From Candidatus Brocadia sp. WS118 (GTDB taxonomy: Bacteria > Planctomycetota > Brocadiia > Brocadiales > Brocadiaceae): a stretch of 37,951 bases of DNA. Within the stretch, counting starts at the first letter, position 1, and every line of letters starts with the position of its first letter. Positions 804 through 36,578 of this stretch are shown piece after piece. Made by a program: the position numbers and the translations under genes. The stretch is from positions 1 to 37,951 of the forward strand of contig PHFX01000017.1 in assembly GCA_007618135.1 (NCBI GenBank), read 5' to 3'. The notes beneath the pieces were generated by a model. That model worked only from the letters and a program-made list of their open reading frames with translations. It was not told the origin of the DNA and searched no databases.

Positions 804-3110
804 TTATTGTGGACGGAACCTGCCGAAGAAACCTTTTCTGGTAACCTTTGATCTCTTCTTGAATTTTGCACGATTTGGTTCAGTAGTGGTTTTTTTGAGT
901 GCCGTAGAAGATACATCGTTCTCAACTCCCAACACATCCACAATGAACTTGAACGACTTTTTCTCCTTTAAACAAATGACGAAGGGGACATTTACAAATT
1001 CTCCAGGACTCAGTACGCCATCTGCATAAGCGCCTGTCAAGGGAATGGTCATTATTGACCCTTCCCCACCATTCCCTCCGTCTGCATTATGGAGAAGATT
1101 CCCATTTGTTAGCGTTTTCACCTGAACCGCAAGGTTTAAAAGAGACGGACTACTGCCCTTGTTTGTGAGTTTGGCATCGAAACTGAATTTCCCGACAAAT
1201 CCTGGCGGACAGCCCGTAGTATCAGAAGTAGTCGCATACGTTAATTTTATAGGTTCAAAGAGGACGAGGTCATTAATAATTTCCGGTGTCGGGACAGGCG
1301 TTGGCGCCGGCGACGGTGTCGGAGTCGGCGTTACTTCCGGACTTGGCGTTGGTGTTACCGTCGCTGTAGCCGTTGGTGTTGGCGTTGTCTCCGGTGACGG
1401 ACTTGGTGAAGGCGTTGGTAGTGGCGTAGCAGGCGCTTCCCACGTCTTTGTCACAGAATTTGATGTTGTCGTCCTGCCGTAGAAATCACTAAAGCTTGCC
1501 TCGATCGTGTCGGTGCCTTCCGTCGTACCCGTATAGGTAAACGTTGCCTGTCCATTTGCATCCGTTGTGTCATTGCCATTTACTCCTGCGTGTGGGCCAG
1601 AGGTAATGTAGAAAAATAACACTATACCCTCAATTGGCTCTGTAGATTCACCTTCCACGGTCTCCACGGTAGCAGTAACGGTATGTTGCGAGCCTATGAA
1701 ATTTGTCTCAGAGTACGGGGTCAAAACAATCGTATCGAGACAAGAGTCAAATGCCGTCCGCCATGGGCTGAAATCCACATAGGCGCTGACCGCAGCACCC
1801 GTTCCAGGCCCAACGCCGGAAGGTCCACTGGCGTTGCCCCACCAGTTGTTTTCCGCGTCAAGTGTAATTGCACTGGAGGTATTGGTAACTCCCGAACTCG
1901 TATTGCCGGCAATGCTGCAATCCGTTACGGTTGGATTCGAATTGCTCTCTGCATAGACACCATTGACATTATCCGTTATTTTTGAACAAGATATCGAAGG
2001 AAGGGAATTACTTTCCGTTGTGTAAATTCCATGTCCATCGGAATTCCGAATAACGCACCGTTGAATGGTAGGCGAGGCGTTGAGACAATAGATGTTCGAA
2101 TCGTAACTGTTAAATCCGCCGTATTCCACGGTGCAATAGTCCAGAATCGTAGTGCTATCATCGGTGTGCTCGAAAAAAACAATCCCTTCCCAGTCACCGG
2201 GCGCAGGGGTTGATGCACTTGAGGTGAAGGTGATAGGACTGCCGCTTGTCCCGTCGGCAATCAGAGTAGCCTTGCTGTAATAGCCGATGAAAAGTGCTGC
2301 CCCATTATCAAATTTCACCAGACACCCCGGATTTATCGTTAATGTTGCGCTGCTATATACGTGGATGTCGTCGCCGGTCACTTGAAAGTAAAAGTCCTGC
2401 GACACCCAGGTACGGTCTACCGTTATAACCCCGCCCCGCACCTCAATGGCATCTGTCCCATTTCCGCTCCCGGTATTTCCCGTTACATTGCTGTCTAACA
2501 AGCCACAGAACAAAGTTACGGGGTAAATGGCATTGTTGCTCATGGTGTTATTTGTTAACGTGGGTGCTGAGTCATTATCACAATAGATTCCATATCCATC
2601 GGAATACCGTATGGTGCAATTTTGAATGGTAGGCGAGGCATTATTGCAATTAATATTGGAATCATAACTATCAAACCCGCCGTATTCTACCGTACAATAG
2701 TCCATAACCGTTGAACCATCCACGGTGCTATTGAAAAAGACGATTCCCCGCCAGTCAGCAGGCGCAGGGGAACCAGCATTTGAGGTGAAGGTGATAGGAG
2801 CATCTTCTGTCCCTACCGCTTTCAAAGCAGCCGCGCTGTAATACCCGATGAAAAGGGCCGCCGTGCTATCAAACTTAACTACACACCCTTTTTCTATCGT
2901 TAATGTTGCTTCGTCATACACATGTATGTAAGTCGTAACGATATGGGGATTATCAGCGGCATACCACGTCTCATCTTTGGTAATATTATTACTGCTATGG
3001 TTCAGCGCATAAGAAACACCATTCCTGGACAACGTTAACATACAGACCGCAAGCAAGAGCAGTCCTGTGCTCAACAAAAACGACTTTGCTCTCCGTTTGA
3101 CACTATTCAT
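804..3110 (-). CDS. exported right-handed beta-helix surface protein with Ig-like domain and Thr/Pro linker
   Basis: A 768-residue exported protein. Residues 1-36 form a Sec signal peptide (KRR, then a Leu-rich core). Residues about 60-430 are parallel beta-helix repeats of the pectate-lyase/NosD type (ASPTIQNCTIRYSDGYGIYC). They include an internal duplication of about 187 residues, with GCVVKFD near 75 and GCLVKFD near 262 and DYCTVEYGGF in both halves. Residues about 455-560 resemble an Ig-like/invasin (Big_1-type) domain (DTTDANGQATFTYTGTTEGT). A linker at 561-610 is almost only Thr, Pro and Ser. A CARDB-like beta domain follows, then a basic tail ending GFFGRFRPQ. The start has GAGGAGG about 8 bases upstream. 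It is controlled by its own c-di-GMP-I riboswitch, so an adhesin or matrix role is likely; no catalytic residues are evident. Confidence 0.85.
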   Translation of the reverse strand: MNSVKRRAKSFLLSTGLLLLAVCMLTLSRNGVSYALNHSSNNITKDETWYAADNPHIVTTYIHVYDEATLTIEKGCVVKFDSTAALFIGYYSAAALKAVGTEDAPITFTSNAGSPAPADWRGIVFFNSTVDGSTVMDYCTVEYGGFDSYDSNINCNNASPTIQNCTIRYSDGYGIYCDNDSAPTLTNNTMSNNAIYPVTLFCGLLDSNVTGNTGSGNGTDAIEVRGGVITVDRTWVSQDFYFQVTGDDIHVYSSATLTINPGCLVKFDNGAALFIGYYSKATLIADGTSGSPITFTSSASTPAPGDWEGIVFFEHTDDSTTILDYCTVEYGGFNSYDSNIYCLNASPTIQRCVIRNSDGHGIYTTESNSLPSISCSKITDNVNGVYAESNSNPTVTDCSIAGNTSSGVTNTSSAITLDAENNWWGNASGPSGVGPGTGAAVSAYVDFSPWRTAFDSCLDTIVLTPYSETNFIGSQHTVTATVETVEGESTEPIEGIVLFFYITSGPHAGVNGNDTTDANGQATFTYTGTTEGTDTIEASFSDFYGRTTTSNSVTKTWEAPATPLPTPSPSPSPETTPTPTATATVTPTPSPEVTPTPTPSPAPTPVPTPEIINDLVLFEPIKLTYATTSDTTGCPPGFVGKFSFDAKLTNKGSSPSLLNLAVQVKTLTNGNLLHNADGGNGGEGSIMTIPLTGAYADGVLSPGEFVNVPFVICLKEKKSFKFIVDVLGVENDVSSTALKKTTTEPNRAKFKKRSKVTRKGFFGRFRPQ

Positions 3111-3172: not shown

Positions 3173-3227
3173 AAAACAAAAAAGCCTTACTGCAAAGATT
3201 TTTCCAAACATCTTCGGCAGTAAGGCT
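3173..3227 (-). terminator. riboswitch expression-platform terminator (copy 2)
   Basis: AGCCTTACTGC (3227-3217) and GCAGTAAGGCT (3193-3183) pair over 11 bp with an inner AAGAT/ATCTT stem, followed by TTTTTTGTTTTT. The arms are identical to those of copies 1 and 3. Confidence 0.9.
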
Positions 3228-3303
3228 GTCTTTTTCTACGTCCGTATATCCTGAAGACCCTTTTACTTTGCGCCCCCTGATTACTCAGGGTTTACCTTTA
3301 TCG
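3214..3303 (-). promoter_or_regulatory. cyclic di-GMP-I riboswitch aptamer, copy 2
   Basis: Minus-strand blocks are AAAGGTAAACC, CCTGAGTAATCAGG, GGGGGCGCAAAG and CAGCCTTACTGCCGAA. Compared with copies 1 and 3 it has GGTAAACC for GGCAAACC and GGCGCAAAG for GACGCAAAG, two changes in otherwise conserved positions. It precedes the 768-residue surface protein gene. Confidence 0.88.
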
Positions 3304-3352
3304 GATATTTTATTACGTTACTTTATAACGAACTTTTGATGTTTGATGGGCA

Positions 3353-21391: not shown

Positions 21392-22499
21392 ATGATTGGC
21401 AATATGGCAAAGGAATTAACCCCCCTTCGAGAACGGTTACTCCACCTGAGGGACTCTCTTTGACTTGGCAAATAAAGAGAAGGAACGATCCGTTTTAGAG
21501 GAACAATTCGCTTCGCCAACCTTTTGGGAAAACAAGGAAAAGGCACAGCAAACTATCGGGAAACTAAAGTCGCTCAAAGGAATTATCTTACCCCTTCAGG
21601 AATTGCAAAAGACACTGGACGATATTGAGTGTTTGTCTGTGCTTGCCGAGGAAGAACACGATGAACAAGCAGAAGCCGAAGTTATCAGAGATATAAAGTC
21701 TTTTACCCAAAAACTTGAAAAGTTTGAATTGCGAACCCTGCTTGGCGAACCCCATGACCACTGTAATGCTTATTTGAGTATTTATGCGGGAGCGGGCGGA
21801 ACAGAGTCATGCGATTGGGTATCCATGCTGTTTCGCATGTACAGCCGGTGGGTTGAAAAGAGCGGGTACACACTCTCTCCTATCGACATATTACCCGGCG
21901 AAGAAGCCGGAATTAAAAGAATTGCCGTTCTCATAAAAGGCGATTATGTTTACGGATATCTGAAATCAGAAATCGGGGTGCATCGTTTGGTGCGCATTTC
22001 CCCCTTCGATGCAAATGCGAGGAGGCACACATCATTTGCAGCGATTGATGTACTGCCGGAGATTGAAGAGGAAGAAGAGATTGAAATTAATGAAAATGAG
22101 TTGCGGGTAGATACCTACCGCGCATCCGGCGCTGGTGGCCAGCATGTGAATAAAACTTCGTCAGCCGTCCGGTTAACCCATATCCCCACGGGGATTGTCG
22201 TTCAATGCCAGAGCGAACGTTCACAGCACCAGAATCGGCGAATGGCCTTAAGTATGTTAAAGGCAAAGATGTATCAGATAAAAGAAAAGGAGCGAGAAAA
22301 GGAACTTTCTGCTGCGTATGATGAAAAGGGAGAAATTGCCTGGGGTCATCAGATTCGTTCCTATGTATTGCAACCCTATTCCCTCGTAAAGGATTTGCGC
22401 ACAGACAAAGAAACAGGGAATACCCAGGCTGTACTGGATGGAGAAATTGACGAGTTTATGGAAGCCTATTTGAAATGGAGAATGGCAAAAGGACATTAA
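21392..22499 (+). CDS. prfB: peptide chain release factor 2 with programmed +1 frameshift
   Basis: Release factor for UAA and UGA codons. A first short frame begins at ATG 21392 (or 21404, MAKELTPLRERL) and ends at TGA 21461-21463 in the context CTGAGGGACTCTCTTTGAC. This is the classic RF2 slip site CTT-TGA-C with a Shine-Dalgarno-like AGGG upstream. Reading +1 at GAC continues to 22499 and gives about 368 residues. The codon-recognition tripeptide SPF (VRISPFDANARRHTSFA) and the catalytic GGQ (ASGAGGQHVNKTSSAVRL) are intact. Low RF2 favours the shift, so the gene autoregulates. It shows that UGA is a working stop in this organism. glyA lies 114 bases downstream. Confidence 0.96.
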
Positions 22500-34239: not shown

Positions 34240-34350
34240 GCCTAATTAAATGTACAGGAATTTCAATCACCCCCCCCCATAATCCCCCCGTTTACGGGGG
34301 GATTATGGGGGGGAAAGTAGCCGAAGGCCTAATTTAATTGTATAAGAATT
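34240..34350. repeat. C/G-run hairpin repeat, copy 2
   Basis: CCCCCCATAATCCCCCC, then GTTTAC, then GGGGGGATTATGGGGGG form a nearly perfect hairpin. It is flanked by direct repeats CCTAATTAAATGTACAGGAATTTCA and CCTAATTTAATTGTATAAGAATTTTCA. A decayed copy lies at 50-130. Confidence 0.8.
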
Positions 34351-34490: not shown

Positions 34491-35060
34491 CTACAAAAGC
34501 CGATAGGGATAGGCACGCTTTGTCCATTCGCTCTCAGGATACCTGGCTTGGAGTTGTTCGTAAGCCTCTTTCAGTCCTTTGGGATTTTTCGTATCCTTGT
34601 ATAAACATACCCCTTTCAGGTAAATTGCCTCCGGCGCCGAGCTACTTTTGGGAAAATCAGACAAAATCTTCTCCAACCTTGAGAGCGCTTCTTTGAATGC
34701 ATTCAGATCAAAATAAACCTTTGCAATACCCAGCATTAACACAGGAATTAATTCTTCAGGGGAAAGAAAACCGACAGTCCTGTGATGTTCTTTGCCTTCT
34801 GTATCAAGGATTACTAAGGTTGGCGTCCACTTTATACTAAAATCCGTGGCAAGGGGCTGTGCATCAGAGCGCACACGCACGGGAATGAAAGAATTCTTGA
34901 TAAATTCGATAACTTTTTTATCGGGATACGAAACTGTATCCATCTGTTGGCATCCGATTCAGCCGGGGTTAAAGAAGTCAAGTAACACCGGCTTTTTCTC
35001 AGAACGCGCCCTTGGCAGAGCCACGTCCATCACTTCTTCCCATGTAATTTTACTTTCCAT
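34491..35060 (-). CDS. thioredoxin-like/TPR selenoprotein candidate (UxxC active site)
   Basis: Read with UGA as selenocysteine this is a 189-residue protein. The ATG at 35060 has AAGGAGG seven bases upstream. Residues 1-33 (WEEVMDVALPRARSEKKPVLLDFFNPG) are the first strand and helix of a thioredoxin fold. TGA at 34959-34961 is codon 34 and is followed by I-G-C, so the motif is UIGC, where relatives have CxxC. The frame then continues unbroken through the cis-Pro segment WTPTLVILDTEGKE to a C-terminal helical TPR-like region (AKVYFDLNAFKEALSRLEKILSDFP). A hairpin at 34924-34941 lies at the bacterial SECIS distance. It lies 23 bases after the rhodanese remnant. If UGA is not recoded, a short N-terminal fragment results. 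Confidence 0.75.
34924..34961 (-). promoter_or_regulatory. candidate bacterial SECIS element of the thioredoxin-like gene
   Basis: Following the UGA (34961-34959), after 17 bases, GGATAC-AGTTTC-GTATCC forms a perfect 6-bp stem with loop AGUUUC. A further AUCG/CGAU pairing closes next to the UGA. The distance from UGA to the loop (23 bases) lies within the range known for bSECIS (about 16-37), and a G is the second loop base. Confidence 0.55.
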
Positions 35061-35083
35061 AATCTTGCCTCCTTATAGTAAAG

Positions 35084-35299
35084 TTAAGGTTCGATAGGAT
35101 AACCCGCCTTTTTCCATCCATTAACGCCACCACCGAGGGCCTTTGCATTCTTGTAGCCTTTTTTCAAGTATACCACTGCCTGACCGGCAGTGCTTGCCTC
35201 TTTGGGTCAGCCGCAATAGAAGACGATCTCCTGATCCTTCGTCAAGGATGGAAGCTTTGATTTGAATGCTTGCAGTGAAATCGCTCCTTCCAGTTGCAT
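35084..35299 (-). pseudogene. 5'-truncated rhodanese-like selenoprotein gene (YCGUP)
   Basis: The frame from ATG 35299 gives MQLEGAISLQAFKSKL, then EIVFYCG-UGA-PKEASTAGQAVVYLKKGYKNAKAL, GGGVNGWKKAGYPIEP and stop TAA. This is the second half of a rhodanese domain. The UGA (35207-35209) stands where CxCP-type rhodaneses (YCxCPxEATS) have their second cysteine. The hairpin at 35174-35192 has a GGUCA loop. The N-terminal half of the domain (through the DVR segment) is missing: upstream there is a stop and repeat-like sequence next to a MITE, and no good ribosome site. It is either a decayed gene or a minimal form. Same strand and unit as the thioredoxin-like gene. Confidence 0.65.
35174..35209 (-). 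promoter_or_regulatory. candidate bacterial SECIS element of the rhodanese gene
   Basis: After UGA and 14 bases, CACTGCC-GGTCA-GGCAGTG forms a perfect 7-bp stem with loop GGUCA. A GGU-containing apical loop at this distance is the hallmark of the SECIS of E. coli fdhF and other bacterial selenoprotein mRNAs. Confidence 0.7.
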
Positions 35300-36357: not shown

Positions 36358-36413
36358 AAACAAAAAAGCCTTACTGCAAAGATATTCTGGTAAACATCTT
36401 CGGCAGTAAGGCT
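36358..36413 (-). terminator. riboswitch expression-platform terminator (copy 3)
   Basis: AGCCTTACTGC (36413-36403) pairs with GCAGTAAGGCT (36377-36367) over 11 bp, with TTTTTTGTTT following. Arms identical to copies 1 and 2. Confidence 0.9.
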
Positions 36414-36519
36414 GTCTTTTTATAAGCCGTTTGAACGGTTTAAGCGGTTTAAACTGTTTAATCGGCTCGCAAGATCCTTTACTTTGCGTCCCCTGATTAC
36501 TCAGGGTTTGCCTTTATCG
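36400..36519 (-). promoter_or_regulatory. cyclic di-GMP-I riboswitch aptamer, copy 3, with extended stem
   Basis: Minus-strand blocks AAAGGCAAACC, CCTGAGTAATCAGG, GGGGACGCAAAG and CAGCCTTACTGCCGAA. The stem between the second and third block is extended by about 30 bases made of imperfect repeats of GTTTAAACNG, giving an aptamer of 120 bases against about 90 in copies 1 and 2. It controls the NHL protein. Confidence 0.88.
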
Positions 36520-36578
36520 TAATGTTTTTGCTATTACAACATTACCTGTAAAAAACCATTCTTTTAAACCTGTTATTT

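Follow-up and report, generated by a model that had tools for sequence, protein, structure and literature searches.

Genes and features at the locus

The window analysed in this study was the whole stretch of 37,951 nucleotides from Candidatus Brocadia sp. WS118, contig 229 of a 5.0 Mb assembly. A gene for a thioredoxin-like domain followed by TPR helices was located on its minus strand (35060-34491), and a rhodanese-like ORF lay directly upstream. An earlier note on this DNA had placed the thioredoxin gene correctly at 34491-35060 but had given no strand; the plus-strand frame of the interval was ruled out by its many stops. When UGA was read as a residue, the gene gave one open frame of 189 amino acids, MESKITWEEVMDVALPRARSEKKPVLLDFFNPG-U-IGCQQMD..., with the motif NPG-U-IGC. 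As the earlier note had described, a single TGA took the place of the first cysteine of a CxxC motif, the frame was intact on both sides of it, and the start codon was preceded by a strong Shine-Dalgarno sequence. The coordinates are listed in Table 1.

Table 1. Features of the thioredoxin-TPR locus and related riboswitches (window positions unless a locus is named)
Feature	Position	Strand	Basis or remark
Thioredoxin-like (UIGC) + TPR gene, predicted selenoprotein, 189 aa, one in-frame UGA	34491..35060	-	Frame open with TGA=U
Predicted Sec-encoding UGA, codon 34, first position of UxxC motif	34959..34961	-	Direct reading; ortholog alignment
Shine-Dalgarno AGGAGG of thioredoxin-TPR gene	35068..35073	-	Direct reading; 7 nt 5' of ATG
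Bacterial SECIS-like hairpin, stem GGATAC/GTATCC, hexaloop AGTTTC	34924..34941	-	Starts exactly 17 nt after UGA
Rhodanese-like ORF, CGU motif (UGA 35209-35207), 71 aa, directly upstream of thioredoxin-TPR gene	35084..35299	-	ORF with TGA=U
SECIS-like hairpin of rhodanese ORF, 7-bp stem CACTGCC/GGCAGTG, loop GGTCA	35174..35192	-	14 nt after its UGA; -13.2 kcal/mol
Nearest c-di-GMP-I-GGC riboswitch in the window, before NHL-repeat-like gene rather than the pair	36398-36521	-
c-di-GMP-I-GGC riboswitch upstream of the pair in other loci	L026:2485-2596; L027:2491-2596; L028:2442-2555; L052:3453-3576; L074:3330-3453

The protein matched Pfam Thioredoxin_2 (PF13098) over residues 18-108 with 50 bits against a cut-off of 27, and TPR_6 with 36 bits, over its cut-off, in the best stretch 144-177. 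The earlier note, whose selenoprotein reading itself was supported, had not mentioned the TPR domain at the C-terminus, the rhodanese ORF upstream or how widespread the family is. No NCBIfam model reached its cut-off for this protein, and an Rfam search at relaxed threshold gave nothing meaningful near the gene. Standard annotation would most likely report only a 150-residue ORF from 34943. A long near-perfect palindrome, CCCCCC...TTTAC...GGGGGG, was observed at 34268-34318, between the thioredoxin-TPR gene and an isochorismatase-like gene.

Conservation of the UGA and exchange with cysteine

Position 34 was UGA in all 19 aligned close orthologs, which ranged from Brocadia and Jettenia to Deltaproteobacteria and Desulfobulbaceae, and the flanking NP-U-IGC was nearly unchanged. 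The closest named loci belonged to 'Candidatus Brocadia' species, followed by Jettenia and two Planctomycetota MAGs, which identifies the host as an anammox planctomycete. Most of the Brocadia and Jettenia genomes examined carried the UGA gene. When 392 Planctomycetota genomes were searched with a profile and the results pooled with previously collected loci, 69 distinct UGA regions were obtained, mostly from Planctomycetota, and all had the form U..C. In a second phylum, that of a Deltaproteobacteria MAG, 395 genomes were sampled and 90 matches were obtained at E <= 1e-40; 79 had exactly one UGA and 11 had none. The earlier note had considered a chance mutation of the exact cysteine codon improbable, and the invariance of the UGA in every close ortholog goes far beyond chance.

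Homologs lacking the UGA were inspected for cysteine at codon 34, as the earlier note had proposed. Cysteine occupied this site in 10 of the 12 examined, while the other two had neither redox residue. One such homolog, from Planctomycetota (G048), had cysteine at the site in a genome without selA and selB.

A paralog (L069, G000:C3:40594-41136) shared the UGA and the hairpin, seemed to carry a signal peptide, and lay about 4 kb from selD. It is probably an exported version of the thioredoxin-TPR selenoprotein.

Hairpin downstream of the UGA

The 6-bp hairpin that the earlier note had reported 17 bases after the UGA was confirmed there, although it was weak in isolation. All six pairs could form in 64 of the 69 UGA regions, and a G was present within the first two loop positions in 68. 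Covariation placed pairs 20-33 and 21-32 of the hairpin at ranks 1 and 2 of 741 column pairs (MI-APC). The pair types included A-T, G-C, T-A, C-G and A-T reversed, and one locus (L098) paired a wholly different stem. In an independent set, the stem was kept in 26 of 28 UGA genes, compared with none of 12 non-UGA homologs. The minimum of synonymous variation across 18 orthologs began at codon 39, over the hairpin.

The published bSECIS model has a loop of 3-9 nt, a stem of 4-16 bp, a G in the first two loop positions, a UGA-to-loop distance of 16-37 nt and a free energy of -7.5 kcal/mol or lower (PMC13188914). With a 6-nt loop, a 6-bp stem, G at loop position 2 and a distance of 23 nt, the geometry lay within these rules. 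The bSECIS comparison proposed in the earlier note thus agreed in loop, stem and spacing, and was marginal in energy for this member: the isolated hairpin, when forced, had -7.2 kcal/mol, narrowly short of the threshold. Over the first 45 nt, an alternative structure that used the first nucleotides after the UGA was lowest in energy (-8.3 kcal/mol). With the first 6 nt after the UGA excluded, the hairpin folded best, and several orthologs folded to it at -7.9 to -8.8.

Selenocysteine machinery and UGA usage

The earlier note had proposed a search for selA, selB, selC and selD, and all four were present in the genome. The tRNA-Sec scored 67.8 bits and was called tRNA-SeC with anticodon TCA by ARAGORN; the matches to selA, selB and selD were each over their cut-offs. 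Since selD itself had one in-frame UGA (motif CGGUAGK), its product is probably also a selenoprotein.

UGA was the terminator in 8 of the 31 candidate genes of the window, so it is not generally reassigned, in agreement with the earlier note. The RF2 gene (prfB) named there lay at 21465-22499 and was preceded by a CTTTGAC programmed-frameshift (+1) site at 21458; the TTG-started ORF at 21465 is therefore only the second part of the gene.

The presence of the UGA gene was compared with that of selA in 59 relatives. Both were found in 29 genomes, the UGA gene only in 3, selA only in 6 and neither in 21 (Fisher p = 7e-8, an optimistic value because the genomes share ancestry). The three genomes with the UGA gene and no selA match (G003, G016 and G047) were all fragmented assemblies, and selB was found in G003. 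In the second phylum, selA was detected in all 21 of the UGA-gene genomes tested, once as a fragment only, and was absent from 4 of 9 genomes with non-UGA forms. It was also detected in the genomes of four of five further named loci carrying the UGA gene. The selA search gave no match in the g11 genomes and several others of the same family as Brocadia and Jettenia.

Evaluation of alternative explanations

The frame is interrupted by a UGA and the adjoining rhodanese gene is truncated in this genome, as would be expected if the UGA were an ordinary nonsense mutation or a sequencing error and the thioredoxin locus a pseudogene. The same UGA was, however, found in all independent assemblies of the ortholog. 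Pairwise dN/dS for 11 Brocadiaceae sequences was 0.087 before the UGA and 0.093 after it, with dS of about 1, so the codons 3' of the UGA are under strong purifying selection. Because dN/dS stays at this level (0.09) downstream, a stop-interrupted pseudogene was ruled out, and the probability left to this explanation, refuted by conservation and selection, is negligible. The UGA could also be a true stop, followed by separate translation of the 150-aa ORF from the ATG at 34943, with the hairpin as a translational coupling signal. This ORF begins 16 nt after the UGA, and close orthologs share its Met. More distant UGA homologs do not retain that Met, and a product started there would miss strand 1 and the two active-site residues, where the family is most strongly conserved. 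The replacement of UGA by a cysteine codon in genes without the hairpin, and the tracking of selA by the UGA gene, also argue against a restart, which is very improbable.

The amino acid inserted at a UGA is not nameable from the sequence alone, and misinsertion of cysteine at selenocysteine codons is known from other systems. A suppressor tRNA might accordingly read the codon as Trp, Gly or Cys. Such a tRNA would have to coexist with the 8 candidate genes that UGA still terminates, and the genome has the full selenocysteine machinery. The UGA occurs only at a redox cysteine site and is accompanied by a SECIS-like hairpin. Suppression by such a tRNA is hence given hardly any weight. With the machinery, the cysteine homologs and the conserved, covarying hairpin in its favour, the earlier note's description of the gene as a likely selenoprotein could be strengthened: the internal UGA almost certainly encodes an active-site selenocysteine. 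Both outcomes that the earlier note had named as refuting, a genome lacking selB/selC and homologs with no conserved Cys at codon 34, were checked and ruled out. Judged from sequence, we are highly confident that the gene encodes a selenoprotein in which UGA is read as Sec34 via the hairpin, the product being a proposed Sec/Cys37 reductase with putative TPR docking.

Structure and likely function

The three-dimensional structure was predicted by AlphaFold2 with a mean pLDDT of 97 from an input of 25 diverse sequences; an input of the 19 close orthologs gave low confidence at the active site. In the model, a thioredoxin fold, in which residue 34 sits at the N-terminal end of helix 35-44, is followed by five TPR-like tail helices. 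Sec34, Cys37, Trp78 and Pro80 were invariant in the 25 diverse members, and the redox pair was found heading helix 1 with the Pro loop facing it. The best fold matches were DsbD-gamma, DsbH and related disulfide reductases, which point to a likely function as a Sec-based disulfide or selenenylsulfide reductase with a docking tail. The protein had no N-terminal hydrophobic segment, from which a cytosolic location is predicted.

In the proposed mechanism, the hairpin just 3' of the UGA would recruit SelB and selenocysteyl-tRNA-Sec to the reading ribosome, and the 189-residue, cytosolic product would receive selenocysteine at position 34. Sec34 would be the attacking nucleophile and Cys37 the resolving thiol, with U-I-G-C opening the first helix and the conserved Trp-Thr-Pro loop opposite. 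Disulfides, sulfenic acids or persulfides of partner proteins may be the groups that the thioredoxin domain reduces, and the C-terminal TPR helices would dock these partners.

In two Desulfobulbaceae loci (L062 and L064), the UGA gene was followed by sequences that read, by eye, as Hsp20-like and Lon-like proteins. These neighbours give a faint hint of a role in protein quality control, as for CnoX.

Upstream rhodanese ORF and riboswitches

The rhodanese-like ORF matched Pfam Rhodanese with 33 bits, over the cut-off, and had the motif YC-G-U-PKEAS and a strong hairpin (Table 1). From its sequence, it is a candidate second selenoprotein. The ORF lacked its N-terminal half in the window and was full length (106 aa) in sister species (L025, L027 and L031). 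The CGU ORF was intact in other Brocadia, including loci L026 and L032, and had an in-frame TAA in B. pituitae (L023/L052). The missing half and the in-frame TAA indicate that the ORF is decaying in places. The full-length form scored 67 bits against NF041203 (rhodanese-related selenoprotein), the cut-off of which is 115.

A c-di-GMP-I-GGC riboswitch (RF03167) was found upstream of the rhodanese/thioredoxin pair in five Brocadia loci (Table 1). Elsewhere in the window, riboswitches of this class at 516-609 and 3212-3305, both on the minus strand, flanked a repeat-rich, secreted-looking protein of 768 aa (804-3110).

Relation to known families

UxxC thiol:disulfide interchange selenoproteins of PF13098 from Geobacter and Syntrophus were included in the 2006 and 2026 lists (PMC13188914, PMC1794560). 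They share the UxxC and the Pfam domain that was the best Pfam match here, Thioredoxin_2. These papers mention no TPR extension for such proteins (reference sequence WP_011366075.1, from Geobacter), which may belong to one family with the present protein. Thioredoxin-fold UxxC selenoproteins are already well known, and the thioredoxin-TPR protein adds a member.

TsoB (NF045694) is a rhodanese/DsbD fusion-like selenoprotein whose C-terminal part matches the thioredoxin protein and whose rhodanese part matches the neighbouring ORF. Assignment to TsoB was rejected at 53.7 against a cut-off of 805; here there are two genes and a TPR domain, but no DsbD membrane part. The VPGUxxT selenoproteins (NF041383, NF041382) are thioredoxin-like and have U at the same place of the fold. 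Membership was likewise rejected, with 30.8 bits against a cut-off of 275 for NF041383 and a UIGC motif that is UxxC, not UxxT.

The DsbD C-terminal (gamma) domain was the best sequence and fold match of the thioredoxin domain. DsbD-gamma is the periplasmic part of a membrane protein, whereas the present protein stands alone, with a TPR tail and no signal peptide. CnoX/YbbN chaperedoxins also have a thioredoxin domain followed by TPR helices, but are longer (282 aa versus 189) and have Cys or Ser in place of Sec. E. coli YbbN (3qou) was a Foldseek match with E 1.3e-6, but with an rmsd of 12 over 202 columns, and YbbN was neither among the sequence matches listed nor among the further fold matches listed.

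No description of a thioredoxin-TPR selenoprotein was found in the literature search, and the Scalindua genome paper named selenocysteine in a reference only. Because two bacterial phyla commonly carry this UGA gene, it was regarded as a real but fairly conventional selenoprotein. A bolder view makes it the type member of a large family of cytosolic thioredoxin-TPR 'seleno-chaperedoxins', most of them with Sec, that is shared by anammox planctomycetes and Deltaproteobacteria. In several Brocadia it would form a functional pair with a rhodanese selenoprotein, controlled by a riboswitch of the c-di-GMP-I class, and signalling by a second messenger would thereby adjust a relay of sulfur or selenium through the two selenoproteins. 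This view is speculative and, on balance, improbable.

Annotation routinely splits selenoprotein genes, and this one is widespread yet has no NCBIfam model at cut-off. The anammox genera Brocadia and Jettenia carry the selenocysteine trait. The family offers a clean natural test set, in which a single enzyme occurs in Sec and Cys forms and the hairpin is present or absent.
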